From: Cupriavidus sp. D39 | Lineage (GTDB): Bacteria; Pseudomonadota; Gammaproteobacteria; Burkholderiales; Burkholderiaceae | Direction: 5' to 3' | Length of the DNA: 64,000 nt | NCBI RefSeq assembly: GCF_026627925.1 | Contig: NZ_JAPNLE010000009.1 | Span: forward strand, 310,001 to 374,000 | In this document: one piece after another, positions 26,801 through 44,990 of the stretch | Layout: every line of letters begins with the position of its first letter | Position numbering within the stretch: position 1 is the stretch's first letter | Notes under the pieces: generated by a model | What the model saw: only the letters and a program-made list of their open reading frames with translations | Databases searched by the model: none | What the model was told of the DNA's origin: nothing | Program-made: the position numbers and the translations under genes

Positions 26801-29125
26801 ATGAGCTCCCCGACGCCTGAAAAAGGCCATATCTCCTCCTACACCCACCCCGCGGCCGGCTGGGGTGCGCTGAAGTACGTTGCCATCAACCTGATCAAGG
26901 AGAAGGTTGCCGGTGGCAAGTACAAGATGCTGTTCAAGCAGAATCAGGCGGATGGCTTCGACTGTCCCGGATGTGCGTGGCCGGACCGGCAGCACGCTTC
27001 CACCTTTGAGTTCTGCGAGAACGGCGTCAAGGCCGTGGCGGCTGAGGCCACCAGCATGCGCGTCACGCCGGAATTCTTCGCGCAGCACACGGTCACATCG
27101 CTGATGGCGCAAACGGATTTCGAGCTGGAACAGCACGGACGGCTGACGCACCCCATGGTCTACGACCCACAGACCGACAAGTACCGTGCGATCGCGTGGG
27201 ACGAGGCCTTTGCGCTGATCGGGCACCACCTGCGGTCGCTGCCCGATCCGAATCAGGCCGCCTTCTATACCTCGGGCCGTGCCAGCAACGAGGCCGCGTT
27301 CCTCTACCAGCTGTTCGTGCGTGCCTATGGCACCAACAAGCTTCCCCGACTGCTCGAACATGTGCCACGAAGCCACCAGCCGCGGCTTGCCGCTGACGGT
27401 AGGCGCGGGCAAGGCCACCGTGGTGCTGGATGACTTCGAGCATGCCGACACTATCCTGTTGTTTGGCCACAACGCGGCGACCAACCATCCGCGCATGCTG
27501 GGCGAGCTACGCGAGTGCGCGCGGCGCGGTGCCACCATCGTATCGATCAATCCGCTGCGCGAACGTGGCATGGAGCGTTTTACCAGCCCGCAGCATCCGG
27601 TGGAGATGCTGACCGGCTCCAGTACCAAGATCGCCTCGATGTTCGTGCAGCCTAAGCTGGGCGGCGACTTTGCCCTGATCAAGGGCATGGCCAAGCGCCT
27701 CTCCGAACTGGACGACGAGGCGGTGAGGCACGGCCGCACGCGCCTGATCGACGTGGACTTTGTGCGCGAGCACACCATTGGCTTCGGCGACTTTGTCGAA
27801 GACCTGCGCGCGCAAAGCTGGGCGGACATCATCGCGGAGTCGGGCGTATCGCAGGAGGATATCGACGCGCTGGCCCAGGTCTACGCCAAGGGCAAGCGCG
27901 TGATCGCGTGCTGGGGCATGGGGCTGACGCAGCACAAGCATTCCGTGCCGACGGTGCAGATCTTGTCCAACCTGATGATGATGCGCGGAAACATCGGGCG
28001 CCCCGGTGCCGGGCTGCTGCCGGTGCGCGGGCATTCGAACGTGCAGGGCGACCGCACGGTGGGCATCGAGGAAAAACCCGAGGAAGCGTTCCTGGACCGC
28101 CTGCAGGCTACATTTGGCTTCGAGCCGCCGCGCGAGCATGGGTACGACGTGGTCAACACCATCTCGGCGATGCTTGACGGCAGAGTCAAGGTCTTCATCG
28201 GCCTGGGCGGCAATTTCTCCACGGCCACGCCCGACACGCCGCGCACCTTCGAGGCGTTGCGCAAGTGCGCGCTGACCGTGAACATCGCCACCAAGCTCAA
28301 CCGCAGTCACCTGGTGCACGGCAAGGCGTCGCTGATCCTGCCCACGCTGGGCCGCACCGAGATCGACCTGCAGGCCGGGGTGCCGCAGGGCGTCACCGTC
28401 GAGGACTCGGTCTGCATGGTCCATATCTCCTTTGGCATGAACGCACCGGCGTCGCCGCACCTGCTGTCGGAGATTGCCATTGTCGCGCGCATGGCGGCTG
28501 CCACGCTCGGCTCGGAGAAGATCGACTGGCTGTGGTATGCCCAGGACTATGCCCGCATCCGCGATGCCGTTGAGATGGTTGTCGAGGGATTCGAGCGCTA
28601 TAACGAGCGTGTCGCGGTGCCGGGGGCTTCCACCTGACGCCTGCGTCCCGCAACCGCGTGTGGCACACCCCGTCAGGCAAGGCGCAGTTCCTGGTCAATC
28701 GCATCGACAAGGACACCCCCATCCATCGTGCCCGCGAGCAGTATGGCGACCGGCTGATGGTGCTGATGACGACGCGCTCGCACGATCAGTACAACACAAC
28801 GATTTATGGCCTGGACGACCGGTACCGCGGCGTCTTCGGCTTGCGCCGGGTAGTCTTCATCAATCCTGCCGACCTGGCACTGCTTGGCCTGAAGGCGGGG
28901 CAGCATGTCGACATCACCAGTGTCTGGGACGATGGCGTGCAGCGCCACGTCGAGGACTTTGTGCTTGTCGAATACGACATTCCGCAAGGCTGCCTGGGTG
29001 CGTACTATCCCGAGACCAATCCGCTGGTGCCCCTGGAGAGCACCGGCGATGGCTGTGGCACGCCCACATCCAAATCGGTGCCGGTGTTGCTGAGCCCCTC
29101 CAGCCGCCAGCCCGCGACGGCGTAA
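26801..29125 (+). pseudogene. FdhF/YdeP-family molybdopterin oxidoreductase (CbbBc-like), two frame changes
   Basis: Formate-dehydrogenase-alpha-like protein, about 775 codons in total. The N-terminus has the FdhF/YdeP signature DGFDCPGCAWPD (Cys55, Cys58). The reading frame changes +1 at 27338-27347 (AAG CTT CCC CGA), a few codons before PDCSNMCHE, whose second Cys matches the Mo-ligand Sec/Cys of FdhF. A second change (-1) sits at the G5 run 28622-28626, after which the molybdopterin-dinucleotide-binding C-terminal domain continues to 29125 (LMTTRSHDQYNTTIY...). The second resembles a homopolymer error. The first is shared with the paralogue at 39648. It is followed 16 bases later by psiE and then fdhD, which sulfurates the cofactor. 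Confidence 0.85.
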
Positions 29126-29141: not shown

Positions 29142-29588
29142 ATGAGCTTGGACAGAAAACCCGGCTCCCGGCCGGGCCAAGGGTTGGTGCGCGCCCGCCT
29201 TGAATCCTTTCTGGGCATGGCGGAACTGGCGGGCCTGGTCGTGATCGGCCTGGCAACGACGTTCATCATGGCGCAGGAAGGCTGGAAGGTTGCGGGCATG
29301 GGCGCGGTCTCGATTACCGACCTGCTGCTGATGTTCCTGTACCTGGAGGTGCTGGCGATGGTAGTGCGCTACCTGAAGCTCGGCCAGCTGCCGGTGCGCT
29401 TCCCCTTGTATATCGCGATGGTTTCGCTGGCGCGCGACCTGATCCTGCGCTTTAGCGAGTCCACCGAGTTCCACATGCTGGCCTTGTGTGCCGGCGTTGT
29501 CATGCTGGCCTGCGGCGTGCTGATCCTGCGTTACGGGCAGTACCGCTTTCCCAGCACCGACGACGGGGAAAGCGGCGCCGGGGAGTAA
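29142..29588 (+). CDS. psiE: PsiE-family membrane protein
   Basis: A 148-residue protein with four predicted transmembrane segments (about residues 25-47, 55-80, 88-108 and 110-130) and the phosphate-starvation-inducible PsiE fold (ITDLLLMFLYLEVLAMVVRYL). It begins 16 bases after fdhF, so it is almost certainly cotranscribed. PsiE function is unknown. Its recurrent pairing with an FdhF-type enzyme suggests a membrane anchor or quinone-linked partner, which is inference. Confidence 0.82.
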   Translation: MSLDRKPGSRPGQGLVRARLESFLGMAELAGLVVIGLATTFIMAQEGWKVAGMGAVSITDLLLMFLYLEVLAMVVRYLKLGQLPVRFPLYIAMVSLARDLILRFSESTEFHMLALCAGVVMLACGVLILRYGQYRFPSTDDGESGAGE

Positions 29589-29745
29589 AGCGCGGTGCGC
29601 GCAGGCATCTGTGGATGTCGCGGACTGGCGCAACTGTATCCCTCGTGCGCCGCGGCCCCTGCTTACCATCATTCCCAACAGTATCCGACAACGCCCCATG
29701 GCGCCCGACGCGTGCCGGGGTGGCATCAATCTTCGCGAGGTTCCC

Positions 29746-30636
29746 ATGGATTGCACCGAACCGGTTGAACTGGTTGAACTGGTTGAACACTCAGGCTATG
29801 AAGCGCGCAGCATCGTACGGCACAAGGACGGCGCGGCGCAGCCGGCCACCGACAACGTGGCGGAAGAACTCCCGGTGGCCCTGGTATACAACGGCATCTC
29901 GCACGCCGTGATGATGGCCACGCCGCTGGACCTGGAGGCGTTCGCGGTCGGCTTTTCGCTGACCGAGGGCATCGTCAGCGGCAACGCGCAGATCCACGAC
30001 CTGGAAGCGCGCGTGCACCGGCACAGCGCCGAAGTGCGGCTGCAGATCAGCGAACACGCCTTCGCCGCGATGAAGGCGCGCCGGCGCTCGCTGGCGGGCC
30101 GCACCGGCTGCGGTGTCTGCGGCATCGAGAGCATCGAGCTGCTCGACCTGGTGCCCGCGCGCATCCCGGAGCCGGCAAAGCGGCTGGCGCCGTCGCGCGA
30201 GGTGATCGAGCGCGCCGTCGAGGCGCTGCCGTCGCACCAGCGGCTGATGCGGGCCACGGGTGGCGTCCACGCCGCGGCCTGGTGCAACGAGCGCGGCGAG
30301 ATCCTGCATGTATTCGAGGATGTCGGCCGGCACAACGGCCTGGACAAGTTGATCGGCCACCTGGCGATGCAGCGCGTGGCGATGGACGACGGCTTCGTGT
30401 TCCTGTCCAGCCGCGCCAGCTATGAACTGGTGCGCAAGGCGGCGCGCATGAATATCCAGATGCTGGCCACGATCTCCGCGCCGACCTCGCTGGCAATCCG
30501 GATCGCCGAGCAGGCCGGCCTGCGTCTGCTCAGTTTCTGCCGCAAGGACGGCTATGTCGACTATACCGGCGCAACACCGGGCGGCGGCAACGATGCGCAC
30601 ACCACGTGCGCTCCGGCGGGAGGCGCGGCATGCTGA
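29746..30636 (+). CDS. fdhD: FdhD sulfurtransferase (formate dehydrogenase maturation)
   Basis: A 296-residue FdhD protein. The catalytic cysteine loop is visible as RTGCGVCG (residues ~117-124), followed by the C-terminal cofactor-binding part (GGVHAAAW, FEDVGRHNGLDKLIG, SSRASYELVRKAA). FdhD moves sulfur from IscS to the Mo-bisPGD cofactor, which formate dehydrogenase needs. The start at 29746 is chosen for GCGAGG 6-11 bases upstream. Its first codons contain a 9-base unit (GAACTGGTT) three times, giving ELVELVE. The gene ends inside the next gene's start (ATGCTGA). Confidence 0.92.
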   Translation: MDCTEPVELVELVEHSGYEARSIVRHKDGAAQPATDNVAEELPVALVYNGISHAVMMATPLDLEAFAVGFSLTEGIVSGNAQIHDLEARVHRHSAEVRLQISEHAFAAMKARRRSLAGRTGCGVCGIESIELLDLVPARIPEPAKRLAPSREVIERAVEALPSHQRLMRATGGVHAAAWCNERGEILHVFEDVGRHNGLDKLIGHLAMQRVAMDDGFVFLSSRASYELVRKAARMNIQMLATISAPTSLAIRIAEQAGLRLLSFCRKDGYVDYTGATPGGGNDAHTTCAPAGGAAC

Positions 30637-37581: not shown

Positions 37582-38070
37582 CGATGTGCTCTCCGTGGGG
37601 TTGCCGCCGGCAGACGGCGTGTCGCGCGACACTAGGGACAAGCGTAGGGACTACAGCCCGCCCGCAAAGATTACAGTTCTGGCCGAACCGCTAAAGCTCA
37701 GTTTGTGCAAGCCGGAAGAAGCGCTGCCAGGCGCCTTGCAGCCATACAGATGGCGCTATGGCGCAGGATCACAGTCATGGCCAGACGCGCAAAGCCATCG
37801 CCAGGACCTGGATCAGCAGGAGCAGTCACAGCTGCAGAGATCGAACTGTTCTGTTGATGGGAGGGCTTTTCTGTACTCCGGTTGGCGCGTCGTTGTTTTC
37901 TACCATTCTCATAACGGCTGGCAGCCGGGCGTCACATCTTCGTGCTTCGTGTGACCGCCAGCGCGCGAGTAGCCCAGCCGCCGGGGCGCTGCTTTCGCAT
38001 TGTTCGCGCGATATCTGCGTCGGAGATTCGGCAGGGCTTAGAGGCAAGAAACCCAGTGATCAAGTTCGCT
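37582..38070. other. intergenic region between cydA and the recombinase
   Basis: About 490 bases with no supported gene. Short open frames on the plus strand (for example from ATG 37758, MAQDHSHG...) lack ribosome binding sites and a continuing domain. The left side should hold the cydA promoter. Confidence 0.45.
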
Positions 38071-38997
38071 ATGAATAATCTGTGGCTCAAGAATCCGTCC
38101 CTCGCGTATGCAGACTGGCAAGGACGCGAATCCGCAGGCACAGATCAACGCCGTTTTGCTCAACAGTCGATCGTCCAGCATCGCGCGATGCTCGACCGTT
38201 TTCAGCGCCATCTGGTCGCCCATGGCGTGACGCTGGAAGACTTCGACCCCGACCATATCGAAGCCTTCTGGCGCGATCCGGAGGCGGCCACCTACACGTC
38301 CGCCACAAGGATGCGCTACCTGCAATTGCTCGACCGCTTGTGTCGCCACCTTGTAGAGATCGGTGTGCGGGAGACCAACCCTGCCGCCGATCCGGTGCGC
38401 GATGGCAGCTGGTCCTCCGACGGGGCCGTTCCACTCTTCTTGCCAGAGGAAGTGGACGCGCGGCTGCAGGACTTTGTGCAGCCGCTTGAAGGCGACGATG
38501 TCTCACGGCTTCGCATGCGAGCCATCCTGGCCTTGTTTCTAGGTGCTGGCGTCACGGCGGCAGAAGGCCGAAGCGCGACCATTCATGACCTTCAGACCTC
38601 GTGCACCTCATCATTTCTCTCTGTCCCAGAGGGTCGCGCGAAGGTCGCCCGGTCCGTTCAGCTGGAGCCCTTCGCCGTCCCGGCCTTGGATGCGTGGAAG
38701 GTACGGCGGGCTACACTCCCCATTGCTGGTGACCTGCTTTTTGCCCTACGGCCCTCCGGCACACCAATCACTGACATGAGTCTCGGAAACATCGTGCGCG
38801 ATGCGTTCGAGGCGATCGACTATAGGGCGGCTGATATGAGCCCGCGGATTCTGCGAAATACTTATTGTCGGCGCGCGCTCCTTGCCGGGGTACCACGCGA
38901 CCGCGTGTCAGAGCGGCTTGGGCTGACCAGCAATCACACGTGCGACCGAATGCTCGCCACCATACCCGGACCCGCTGATCGCCGGCTCAGTGCTTAG
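38071..38997 (+). CDS. degenerate tyrosine recombinase/integrase
   Basis: 308 residues. An N-terminal SAM-like core-binding domain is clear (IVQHRAMLDRFQRHLVAHGVTLEDF). The C-terminal catalytic domain is recognisable (GAGVTAAEGRSATIHDL, PRILRNTYCRRALLAGVPRDRVSERLGL), but the first Arg of the RxxxE-type motif, the HxxR His, the LGH His and the nucleophilic Tyr are missing or replaced (TCDRMLATIP at the end). It is probably inactive or a regulator-like relative. ATG 38071 has no good SD, so the N-terminus is uncertain. It marks the edge of an accessory block. Confidence 0.65.
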   Translation: MNNLWLKNPSLAYADWQGRESAGTDQRRFAQQSIVQHRAMLDRFQRHLVAHGVTLEDFDPDHIEAFWRDPEAATYTSATRMRYLQLLDRLCRHLVEIGVRETNPAADPVRDGSWSSDGAVPLFLPEEVDARLQDFVQPLEGDDVSRLRMRAILALFLGAGVTAAEGRSATIHDLQTSCTSSFLSVPEGRAKVARSVQLEPFAVPALDAWKVRRATLPIAGDLLFALRPSGTPITDMSLGNIVRDAFEAIDYRAADMSPRILRNTYCRRALLAGVPRDRVSERLGLTSNHTCDRMLATIPGPADRRLSA

Positions 38998-39647: not shown

Positions 39648-41920
39648 ATGGCTAATCGACGCGAAGTGCCAGGTGTCCGGAAGTACGATGGTCCCGCAGG
39701 AGGTTGGGGGCGCTTAAAGCCACAGCCACGGCTATTCGCCTGCAGATGGATACCACCAAGGCCCCGATCACACTGCTTCGGACCAATCAGCCCGATGGGT
39801 TTGACTGTCCGGGGTGCGCGTGGCCTGACAAGGAACACCTGTCCACATTCCAGTTCTGCGAGAACGGCGCAAAAGCGGTGACCTGGGAGGCAACGACCAA
39901 GCGGGTTCGCCCCGATTTCTTTACGAGCCACACAGTGTCGTCGCTGTTGAATCGAACCGACTACGAACTCGAAGACCTGGGCCGCCTTACGCATCCGCTC
40001 GTCTACGACCGCGCTACCGACACGTTCCGCGCGGTGGAATGGGAAGCAGCCTTCGCCCGTATCGGCGAAGTGCTCCGCGGGCTGTCGCCCGACGAGGCCG
40101 AGTTCTATACTTCGGGGAGGGCTTCGAACGAGGCCGCATACCTCTATCAGTTGTTCGCAAGAGAGTATGGAACGAACAAGCTTCCCCGATTGTTCAAACA
40201 TGTGCCACGAGCCGACGAGCGTTGGCCTGCCTCGCTCGATCGGCATCGGCAAGGGCACCGTCTCATTGGAGGATTTCGATCAATGTGAACTCATCATCTC
40301 GATCGGACACAATCCCGGTACGAATCACCCACGGATGATGGGAACCTTGCACGAGGCATCAAGGCGCAAGGTTCCCATTATCGTATTCAACCCGCTTCGC
40401 GAGCGAGCGCTTGAGCGTTTTGCGGACCCCAGAACATGCTTGAAATGGCGACTTACGGTTCCACGAGAATCGCATCGTCCTATTTCCAGGTTAAGGCCGG
40501 AGGGGATGCGGCTGCCATCAAAGGCGTGATGAAAGCGTTGATGGATCTGGAGGCCAGGCAGGGCGGTGTCCTCGACTACGAGTTCATCGCTACGCATACC
40601 GAAGGATTTGACGCGCTTGCTGATGATCTCGAGGCCACGGAATGGCCGGATATCGAGAAGGCCAGTGGACTGGGCCGCGCGGATCTTGAACTGGTCGCGG
40701 CTGCCTATGCAAAGTCGAATGCCACGATCATCAGCTACGGGATGGGTGTCACGCAGCACAATGAAGGCACTGCAAATGTCCGTCTGCTGTGCGATCTGCT
40801 GATGTTGCGCGGCAACCTTGGAAAACCTGGCGCCGGCATTTGCCCATTGCGAGGTCACTCAAATGTGCAGGGGAATCGGACGGTTGGCATTACTGAGAAG
40901 CCGTCGAGTCGCTTTCTTGCAAAAATCGAGGAAGTATTCGGGTTCAAGCCGCCCGACCAGCATGGGCATGACGCCGTCAGGGCCATGCAAGCGATGATTG
41001 CAGGCACGGCCAAGGCATTGATCTGCCTGGGTGGGAACTTTGCGGTCGCGCTGCCTGATCCTGATCAGTGTTTCCCCGCCATGGGCAGGCTCGACCTGAG
41101 TGTCCACGTCGGGACCAAACTCAATCGCACGCATCTGTTGGTGGCAAAGGAAACCTATTTGCTGCCCTGCCTGGGTCGCACCGAACTTGACGTGCAGGAG
41201 ACTGGGCCCCAATCGGTGACGGTAGAGGATTCGATGTCGATGGTTCACGCCTCAGCCGGGAAGCTTACGCCCGCTTCCGAGTTCCTGAGATCCGAGCCAG
41301 CGATCGTGGCTGGCATTGCCACCGCCACCTTGCCGAACAGCAGGGTGTCATGGCTTGCATTGACTGCAGACTATGACAGGATCCGCGATCTGATCGAGAA
41401 GACTGTGCCGGGATTCGAGAATTTCAATGAGCGCGTTCGAGTTCCGGGAGGATTTCGCATGCCGCTTCCGCCCACTGAGCGAAAATGGGAAACGCCATCA
41501 GGAAAAGCCATGTTCTTCGTGTTCAAAGGGCTGCACGAAGACAAGGAAGTCCAGGCCGATGATGTGTTGCGCCTCGTGACAATCCGCAGCCACGATCAAT
41601 ACAACACGACCATCTATGCCATGGATGACCGATATCGGGGCGTGTTCGGTCGGCGTGATGTGTTGTTCATGAACGAAGCGGATCTGGCCGCGCGTGGCCT
41701 GGAGCATGGGGATCTGGTCGATATCGAGACGATCACATCGGGCAGGTTGCTTCGGTTTGAAAAGATTACCGCAATCGAGCATGACATCTCTGCCGGCTCG
41801 GTCGCGGCTTACTATCCCGAAGCGAACAAACTGGTGCCGCTCGACTACATCGATGAAGATAGTGGCACACCGTCCTACAAGTCAGTTCCGGTGCGTGTGG
41901 TGCGCTCGGAAGTGACTTGA
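39648..41920 (+). pseudogene. second FdhF/YdeP-family molybdopterin oxidoreductase, three frame changes
   Basis: A diverged paralogue of the gene at 26801, about 757 codons. The start at ATG 39648 (MANRREVPGVRKYDG) has GGAGAG upstream. The frame breaks at the G5 run 39706-39710 and the C4 run 40427-40430, both repaired by one base, and +1 at 40178-40187, where the sequence AACAAGCTTCCCCGA is identical to the other copy. After that the protein reads [10 protein letters not shown], then [34 protein letters not shown] and on to the C-terminal domain ending at 41920 (RGVFGRRDVLFMNEADL...). It lies in the clpK block, away from fdhD and moeA. Confidence 0.85.
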
Positions 41921-42189
41921 TTTGAGGCGAGTACCAAGCCACTTGGCAGGAGGCCACACGATTAAACCTGCTCATCCACGGGCAGGGCGTTGCATGTCTC
42001 CTCACTTCTTGAGTACGTGTGTCATTTCGATGCCGCCGAGTGGAGTCGGCAGCAGAGAAGCGAATCGGCCCGGGGAACCGGATCCTGATGCCGTCATGGG
42101 GAGGTGCTGCGGCTAGATCGCGGCGCCTGCCGCGTCAATTACGCGCGTGGCGGCATCTTGCGATACCTCACTATGGAGATGAATCCATC

Positions 42190-44990
42190 ATGTCGACACT
42201 TTGTGAAATCTGCAATGCACGCCCAGCCGTTGCGCGGGTCGCGGTTGTGCAGAACGGTCAGCGCAAAACGATGTCAATCTGCGACTATGACTATCGCCAG
42301 CTGCTGCGCCACCAGAGCATGATCAATCCGTTCGACTCGCTATTGGGTGGTGGCTTGTCTCGTTTCTTCGATGGTTTGGGGGACGTGATGGATCATGAGG
42401 CCGAGGATTCGGGGCTGGCTGCAGAGGTGCCGCGTGAATCCGTGGATGTCACCGATGCGTTCAGCGAGCAGACTCTTGAACTCCTGCAGCGCGCGGCAGA
42501 GAAAGCCCACGAACTGCGTCGCAATGAGCTTGATACAGAGCATCTGTTGTACGTGCTTGCCGATACTGACGTCGGGACCGCGTTGCTCAAGGAGTTGAAG
42601 CTCTCGCCGCAGGACATCAGGGGGTACATCGACAAGCATGCGCAAACGGGCACTGCCGAGCCGGATGCACCGATTGATAGAATGACGATTTCTCCGCGCC
42701 TGAAGAAAGCCTTTCTTTACGCGTTTCAGGCGTCGCGTGACCTGGGACATTCGTACGTTGGCCCGGAGCATCTGCTCATCGGCCTTGCCGCTGTCCCGGA
42801 CAGCATCGCGGGGACTCTGCTGAAGAAGTACGGCGTGACGCCCGAGGCGCTGCGCCAGAAGGTGGTGAAAGTCGTCGGCAAGGGCGCGGAGGACGGCCGA
42901 GTCGATACGCCGACGGGCACCCCGACGCTCGACAAGTTCGGCCGCGACCTTACGGCAATGGCGCGGCAGGGCAAGCTCGACCCGGTGCTCGGTCGCGCGC
43001 AGGAAATCGAGAGTACGATCGAAGTCCTTGCCCGGCGCAAGAAGAATAATCCGGTGCTGATCGGCGAGCCGGGGGTTGGGAAAACTGCGATTGTCGAAGG
43101 CTTCGCGCAGCGCATCGTCAATGGCGACGTGCCAGAGGTGCTGCGCGACAAGCGCCTCGTCGAGGTGAACATCAACGCCATGGTTGCGGGCGCAAAGTAT
43201 CGCGGCGAATTCGAGGAGCGCGCGAAGCAGCTGATAGACGAGGTGACCGCGAAGAACGCCGAGCTGATCCTGTTCATCGACGAATTGCACACAATCGTGG
43301 GTGCGGGGCAGGGCGGCGGCGAAGGCGGCCTTGACATCGCGAACGTGCTGAAGCCCGCGCTTGCGCGCGGCGAACTGAGCCTGATCGGCGCAACGACGCT
43401 CAACGAATACCAGAAATACATCGAGAAGGACGCCGCGCTTGAGCGACGTTTCCAGCCGGTGCTCGTGCCGGAGCCAACTGTTGAGCAGACCATCATCATC
43501 CTGCGCGGCCTGCGCGACAAGCTTGAGGCACACCACCAGGTCACGTTTGCCGACGATGCCTTTGTCGCCGCCGCCGAGCTTTCAGACCGCTACATTACGT
43601 CGCGCTTTCTGCCAGACAAGGCCATCGATCTGATCGACCAGGCGGCTGCGCGTGTGCGCATCGGCTCGACATCGCGGCCAGCCGATATCCAGGAACTTGA
43701 AGCGGAAATCGCACAGATCAAGCGAGAGCAAGACTATGCGTCGTCGCGCAAGCGCTACGATGAGGCGAAAGACTTTGAAGAACGCATCAAGGAGAAGCAA
43801 ACGCGGCTCGACGACCTGACCGAGGCTTGGCAGCGCAAGACAGGCTCGCGGACGTTTGAGGTAACGGTCGCGGCAATCGCAGAGGTGGTATCTCGCCTTA
43901 CGGGCATTCCGGTTACTGACCTCACTCAGGAAGAGCGTCAAAAACTCCTGAAGATGGAAGCCAAGTTGCGCGAACGCGTAGTGGGCCAGGAGGAAGCCGT
44001 AGTCGCAGTCAGCGACGCCGTGCGTTTGTCACGTGCGGGGCTCGGTCAAGCACACCGGCCGATTGCAACGTTCCTCTTCCTGGGGCCCACCGGTGTCGGC
44101 AAGACCGAACTGGCAAAGGCGCTGGCGGAAACGGTGTTCGGCGATGAACAGGCGATCATCCGTATTGACATGTCCGAGTACATGGAGCGGCATGCGGTTG
44201 CACGGCTCATTGGCGCGCCCCCAGGATATGTGGGTTACGACGAAGGGGGCAACCGACCGAGCGTGTCCGGCGACGTCCCTACAGCGTGATTCTGCTCGAC
44301 GAGATCGAGAAGGCACACCCCGACGTGAACAACGTGCTGCTGCAGGTGTTTGACGACGGTCGGCTGACCGACGGAAAGGGGCGTGTCGTGGATTTCAGCA
44401 ACACGATTCTCATTGCCACCAGCAACCTTGGCGCAGCGATCATCATGGAGAACCTCGAGCGCCCCGAGGATTCCCGCATCACCGACAAGGCGTTGCGCGA
44501 CGAACTCATGAAGGTTCTCAAGGGCCACTTCCGTCCTGAGTTCCTGAACCGCATCGACGATATCATCGTGTTCCATGCGCTTTCGCGAGAGAACATCCGC
44601 TCGATCGTGCAGATTCAGCTCGAAAGGGTGGTGCGGACCGCCGCAGCACAGGACATCACGGTGACGCTCAGCGCTTCACTCATCGATCATCTAGTCGAGG
44701 TGGGCTATCAGCCGGAGTTCGGTGCACGCGAACTGAAGCGCCAGATTCGTCAGAAGGTCGAAACGAGGCTCGCGACGGAGATTCTCGGCGACGGCCTGAA
44801 ATCGGGTGATAGTGTCGAGCTGGGCTACGACAAGGACAAGGGTGAGGTGATACTGAATAAGGCCGCGGTGGCTCGGAAAGCCAAGGTGAATAAGCCAGGC
44901 ACGAAGAGCGCTCAATCCACGGCAGGAAATAGCCCGGAGCCTTCAGGTAACCCCGATTCTTCCGTTTCCGCGCCGCCTCCGCCTCTTTGA
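42190..44990 (+). pseudogene. clpK: ClpK (ClpG_GI)-type AAA+ disaggregase, one frameshift
   Basis: About 933 residues once the G5 run 44245-44249 is restored to six. The N-terminal extension has a Cys cluster ([20 protein letters not shown]) like the zinc-binding N1 region of ClpK/ClpG. A Clp N domain follows, then NBD1 ([25 protein letters not shown]), a short middle domain ([21 protein letters not shown]) and NBD2 ([14 protein letters not shown], then [16 protein letters not shown] after the shift). The C-terminal tail is rich in Pro/Ser. ClpK-type disaggregases dissolve heat-made aggregates and are spread on mobile heat-resistance loci. The usual sHsp or ftsH partners are not visible here. 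GGAG lies 11 bases before the ATG. Confidence 0.85.

Follow-up and report, generated by a model that had tools for sequence, protein, structure and literature searches.

A programmed +1 frameshift is known from the gene prfB. Frame changes of another origin are found in nanopore assemblies of bacterial genomes, in which, according to the available part of PMC8011154, the errors that remain are mainly indels in runs of one base that shift reading frames. The FdhF/YdeP family (TIGR01701) is ordinary; in the available part of PMC10308882, two genes of this family in Pseudomonas putida are described as overexpressed upon formate exposure. These systems were compared with two fdhF/ydeP genes present in the window analysed here, a whole stretch of 64,000 nucleotides from the assembly of Cupriavidus sp. 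D39 (the source assembly). An initial annotation had noted the same frame change at the same site in both genes, just before a cysteine read as a Mo ligand. The genes resemble the family in that their pieces lie in the order of the model and copy 1 has an FdhD-family gene downstream, but differ from it in being split into three or four frames each. They resemble prfB-type genes in having a +1 frame change within the gene and differ from them in that no conservation was found among the genomes compared, no slip motif was common to the other affected sites and further breaks are present in the fdhF genes. As in the nanopore assemblies described in the available parts of PMC8011154 and PMC12506013, frame-breaking losses at single-base runs and errors surviving polishing were observed; unlike the indels in the latter, nearly all of which are missed bases in the part available, the notable error of the source assembly is the gain of a G within a non-homopolymeric word. 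We put at about 0.92 the probability that a consensus error recurring in the source assembly accounts for the additional letter at both fdhF/ydeP sites.

Both genes lie on the plus strand and were scored piecewise against TIGR01701. Copy 1 starts with a piece at 26801 to 27433, which runs from the zero-frame ATG to an early stop (210 codons; model positions 2 to 166), and continues in the shifted frame from the Cys motif at 27342 to the stop at 28637 (positions 165 to 587). A second break lies in a G run at 28620 to 28627, which has one base fewer (aligned at 28622 to 28625) than in all eight relatives, and is followed by the listed open reading frame at 28658 to 29125 (positions 603 to 743). 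Copy 2 opens with a start piece (39648 to 39712) that ends at a break in a G run near 39710, where one base is missing relative to five of five relatives. This piece is followed by the frame that enters the shared site (39704 to 40288; positions 6 to 166), by the shifted frame from the Cys motif (40182 to 40529), which is broken at a C run near 40430 with one base fewer than in five of five relatives, and by a listed open reading frame at 40436 to 41920 (positions 253 to 743). The order of the model was kept along both genes. Scores were 208.7, 543.8 and 150.2 bits for the pieces of copy 1 and 192.7 and 595.3 bits for those of copy 2, compared with a cut-off of 582.15 bits, which one copy 2 piece passes alone, and with a score of 957.2 bits for P0001, a full-length relative with 98% identity. 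An FdhD/NarQ family gene (29611 to 30636, plus strand; PF02634, E = 4.1e-69) lies downstream of copy 1, with a PsiE-family gene (29142 to 29588) between the two. The order of the pieces and the presence of these genes after copy 1 indicate that both fdhF/ydeP genes look like real members of the family. Intact close relatives are known, as shown by a full-length protein with 98% identity and an intact motif recorded for Cupriavidus sp. CuC1; the closest relatives also place the source organism in Cupriavidus. Both genes are predicted to be whole in the cell, probably making ordinary FdhF/YdeP oxidoreductases.

The other frame breaks had initially been described as single missing bases, mostly in homopolymers. 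This description held for the three further breaks within the two fdhF genes (the copy 1 break near 28625 and the copy 2 breaks near 39710 and 40430, all in G or C runs), and its scope is limited to those genes. The missing base near 39710 (five of five relatives) had gone unmentioned and places the copy 2 ATG at 39648 out of the frame of the site, contrary to the reading given at first. A one-base gap at 26802, detected with seven of eight relatives, lies just 5' of the copy 1 start codon and breaks no frame. Other one-base gaps in copy 2 were seen with single relatives, at 39909 in one of five and at 40907 together with 40926 in two of five, and were absent from the rest.

The word AACAAGCTTCCCCGA was present in both copies at the same alignment place (27335 to 27349 and 40175 to 40189). 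The extra letter relative to the other genomes falls within 27338 to 27343 of copy 1 and 40178 to 40183 of copy 2, both on the plus strand. In copy 1 the extra base was placed by the aligner at 27340 in the alignments with all eight chosen relatives, while in copy 2 it was placed between 40180 and 40187 with all five, the precise position differing between alignments. In each gene the entering frame reads NKLPR and then soon stops, and the +1 frame gives the Cys motif, as annotated. Assignment of the second Cys of this motif to the Mo-ligand position was supported by alignment of P0001, used as a stand-in for the window genes, with solved formate-dehydrogenase-type chains: MCHE aligned with RYCQ and RLCH, bringing the second motif Cys opposite that of RYC and RLC (three alignments). 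The binding of Mo itself is assumed, as we take the Cys or Sec at the aligned position of formate dehydrogenase to be the residue that binds the metal.

Conservation of the site was examined among relatives. Of 398 family genomes, themselves a subset of a larger group, 259 matched the in-frame pattern; the source genome was not among them. The pattern with one more letter was matched by a single genome of the 398, namely, the source genome, in which both copies matched. A wider scan of genome contigs, in a set from which the source genome may be absent, detected no match for the longer form. Same-genus loci were fetched by similarity as the best-scoring places only; all 58 motif rows were in frame, corresponding to 49 distinct places after 9 duplicates were dropped. 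In-frame loci of both paralogue kinds were present in each of five sister genomes (G038, G019, G014, G055 and G057). As the relatives are in frame and the longer form was found solely here, the change arose in the source genome or in its assembly, and the in-frame state of both paralogue lineages in sister species indicates that the shift was not inherited. The comparison with close relatives that the initial annotation had proposed therefore yielded sister-species homologues without the shift, and two of its three suggestions, conserved recoding and a shared inherited mutation, were not upheld.

A census of frame errors was performed with 800 kb of the source genome and the matching part of one relative, G033. 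An unfiltered first count of gaps was too noisy, as open frames that were not genes were included. After filtering for identity, third-position bias, lone gaps and flank identity, 156 genes with 172,746 aligned bases were retained; the resulting counts depend on these filters and are lower bounds. Losses in the source genome comprised 20 of one base, two of two bases and one each of four and five bases, while gains comprised two of one base and one each of two and eight bases. A break was present in 23 of the 156 genes. Fifteen of the 20 one-base losses touched runs of at least four equal bases and 19 touched runs of at least three. In a reverse comparison of 152 of the source genome's own frames with G033, all differences were G033 gains (15 of one base and one of two bases) and no losses were detected, a result that fits errors on the source-genome side. 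Earlier filtered counts gave eight breaks in 46 genes, every one a loss, and, for 76 matches, 12 one-base and two two-base losses, one four-base loss and one eight-base gain. Genes with lost bases, named from the G033 translations, include what are presumably those for PBP1A, DsbD, RecQ, MlaA and, in an earlier run, ParA. Synteny with G033 was lacking over the 400 kb around the window. These counts indicated that the source assembly is rich in frame errors, and the losses at runs of one base suggest a long-read origin. One-base gains numbered only two elsewhere in the 172,746 aligned bases, and at this rate the same homologous position would not be expected to gain a base twice independently.

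In both one-base gains of the census, a G had been added inside an AACT word, which is also what the fdhF sites show. The first, CAA(G)CTCGC, was located in ileS (contig 9, near 2,662,760), where the source assembly has GTTCAAGCTCGCAC compared with GTTCAACTCGCAC in G033 and G020 and GTTCAATTCGCAC in G040 and G019; the fifth relative, G006, was unmatched by the pattern of the script. In the census against G033, ileS also had one base too few at a run of A. Searches with TIGR00392 detected the ileS of the source genome as two pieces meeting at the point of the extra G, both below the cut-off. No other match exceeded the cut-off, so that a whole ileS (isoleucyl-tRNA synthetase) was not detected anywhere in the source assembly, which is rated 97.84% complete. 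A whole, single ileS was present in all five of the genomes compared (G033, G020, G040, G006 and G019). Isoleucyl-tRNA synthetase is indispensable to a living cell, and hence the gain in ileS is an error, provided that the assembly does not simply lack an intact copy of the gene. The other gain, GA(G)ACTCGC, was located in a gene that we take to be livM-like, for which the source genome reads CAGAGACTCGC. At this site all 29 fetched relatives were one letter shorter, with AACT in 16, AATT in 2 and ACCT in 11. The extra G lies between two A's in the livM-like gene and is thus one position off from the other three sites, where it follows the A's. No CCCC run accompanies the extra G in ileS or in the livM-like gene, and the slip context CTT CCC C, to which the initial annotation had pointed, is therefore not needed as an explanation. 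The remaining suggestion of that annotation, a systematic error, derives its main support from these two like gains in the same assembly. It also agrees with the restriction of the change to one assembly, with the in-frame state of sister species and with the similar breakage of a needed gene, ileS.

The influence of local sequence on the error was then considered. In the source genome, CAACTTCCCC was uncorrupted 19 times and there were two exact copies of AACAACTTCCCCGA, one of which lies in a gene with an open frame that we take to be gltD-like; the same word was not, therefore, always hit. Misreading of every CAACTTCCCC or AACAACTTCCCCGA word was rejected on these grounds, indicating that the immediate context is insufficient to cause the error, which is context-linked at most. 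CAAGCTTCCCC occurred six times in the source genome, four of them outside fdhF. These four may or may not carry an extra letter, as the frame check does not discriminate, returning an antisense frame without stops for fdhF copy 1 as well. All six copies were on the plus strand of their contigs and none on the minus strand, a distribution that is possibly meaningless, contig orientation being arbitrary. The census region contained 589 AACT words, of which 57 were AACTYSC. The short AACT word may raise the risk of error without deciding it, the link being drawn from four sites and partly after the fact. A longer motif common to the two fdhF sites and ileS, which agreed at 13 of 40 flanking positions, was not accepted because a motif cannot be defined from just three sites; none of the 970 CAACT words in the 800 kb matched all 13 agreeing positions. 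The two fdhF sites have ∼35 bases of conserved codons in common, and something within this stretch may matter.

In the mechanism that we propose, the source reads would have been of the long single-molecule type, as the losses at single-base runs suggest, and the misread would have arisen from local sequence together with a further factor, possibly base modification. An identical misread would then have occurred in the two paralogues, whose conserved codons coincide over ∼35 bases. The modified-base component is a weak one and is held loosely. In the available part of PMC12506013, 77 of 103 erroneous indels in Neisseria nanopore assemblies were at or adjoining methylated positions, but nearly all of the nanopore indels were missed bases and no link with methylation was found for those of Salmonella, observations that weaken this idea.

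An extra letter truly present in the DNA of the strain, due to parallel mutation or to a very short gene-conversion tract, would mean that both genes are broken. The finding that both copies were affected while 19 CAACTTCCCC words elsewhere were intact does point to something special about these two genes. However, between mismatches the copies have only 15 bases in common at the site, which is short for recombination, the only other one-base gains found (ileS and the livM-like gene) were of the same kind, and losses at single-base runs were present in both fdhF genes as well; a real gain is, consequently, considered improbable. Were the change nevertheless real, it would constitute a new recoding site beside the active centre of an enzyme. 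Such recoding, by programmed +1 frameshifting through a slip on CCC C before the putative Mo-ligand Cys, would allow both genes of this species or lineage to yield complete proteins, and we consider it very improbable. Although the slip is predicted from the sequence to restore the frame, yielding NKLPDCSNMC, and the site is common to both copies, the longer form was confined to one of 398 family genomes with no match in the contig scan, and a like extra G was present in ileS and the livM-like gene without a CCCC run. Furthermore, a single shift was not enough for a full-length product, as the breaks near 28625, 39710 and 40430 are uncured by it. A frame change that predated the duplication and was inherited by both copies would explain the occurrence of the same site in both paralogues, but five genomes (G038, G019, G014, G055 and G057) have both kinds in frame, leaving this explanation with almost no probability. 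A recurrent consensus error of the source assembly is, therefore, preferred. The case is a caution that identical frame changes in two paralogues mimic biology and can stem from one recurrent misread of conserved codons, and it is worth checking whether an indispensable single-copy gene is broken in the same way.

Further observations were made around copy 2 and elsewhere on the contig. A phage-integrase-like gene (37942 to 38997), for which one of two Pfam matches was below the cut-off, is located just upstream of fdhF copy 2, and similar fdhF genes were found on plasmids of Klebsiella, Pantoea and Erwinia; together, these suggest that the region around copy 2 may be a mobile island. Outside the window, between 2.48 and 3.28 Mb of contig 9, further genes had lost bases, and one of these, the gene read as that for PBP1A, had two breaks. 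Downstream of fdhF copy 2, a ClpB-like AAA gene is split, with the frame at 42019 to 44289 stopping inside AAA_2 (positions 1 to 65) and that at 44286 to 44990 resuming at AAA_2 position 79 and continuing to ClpB_D2-small. This split (42019 to 44990) is probably one more frame error.
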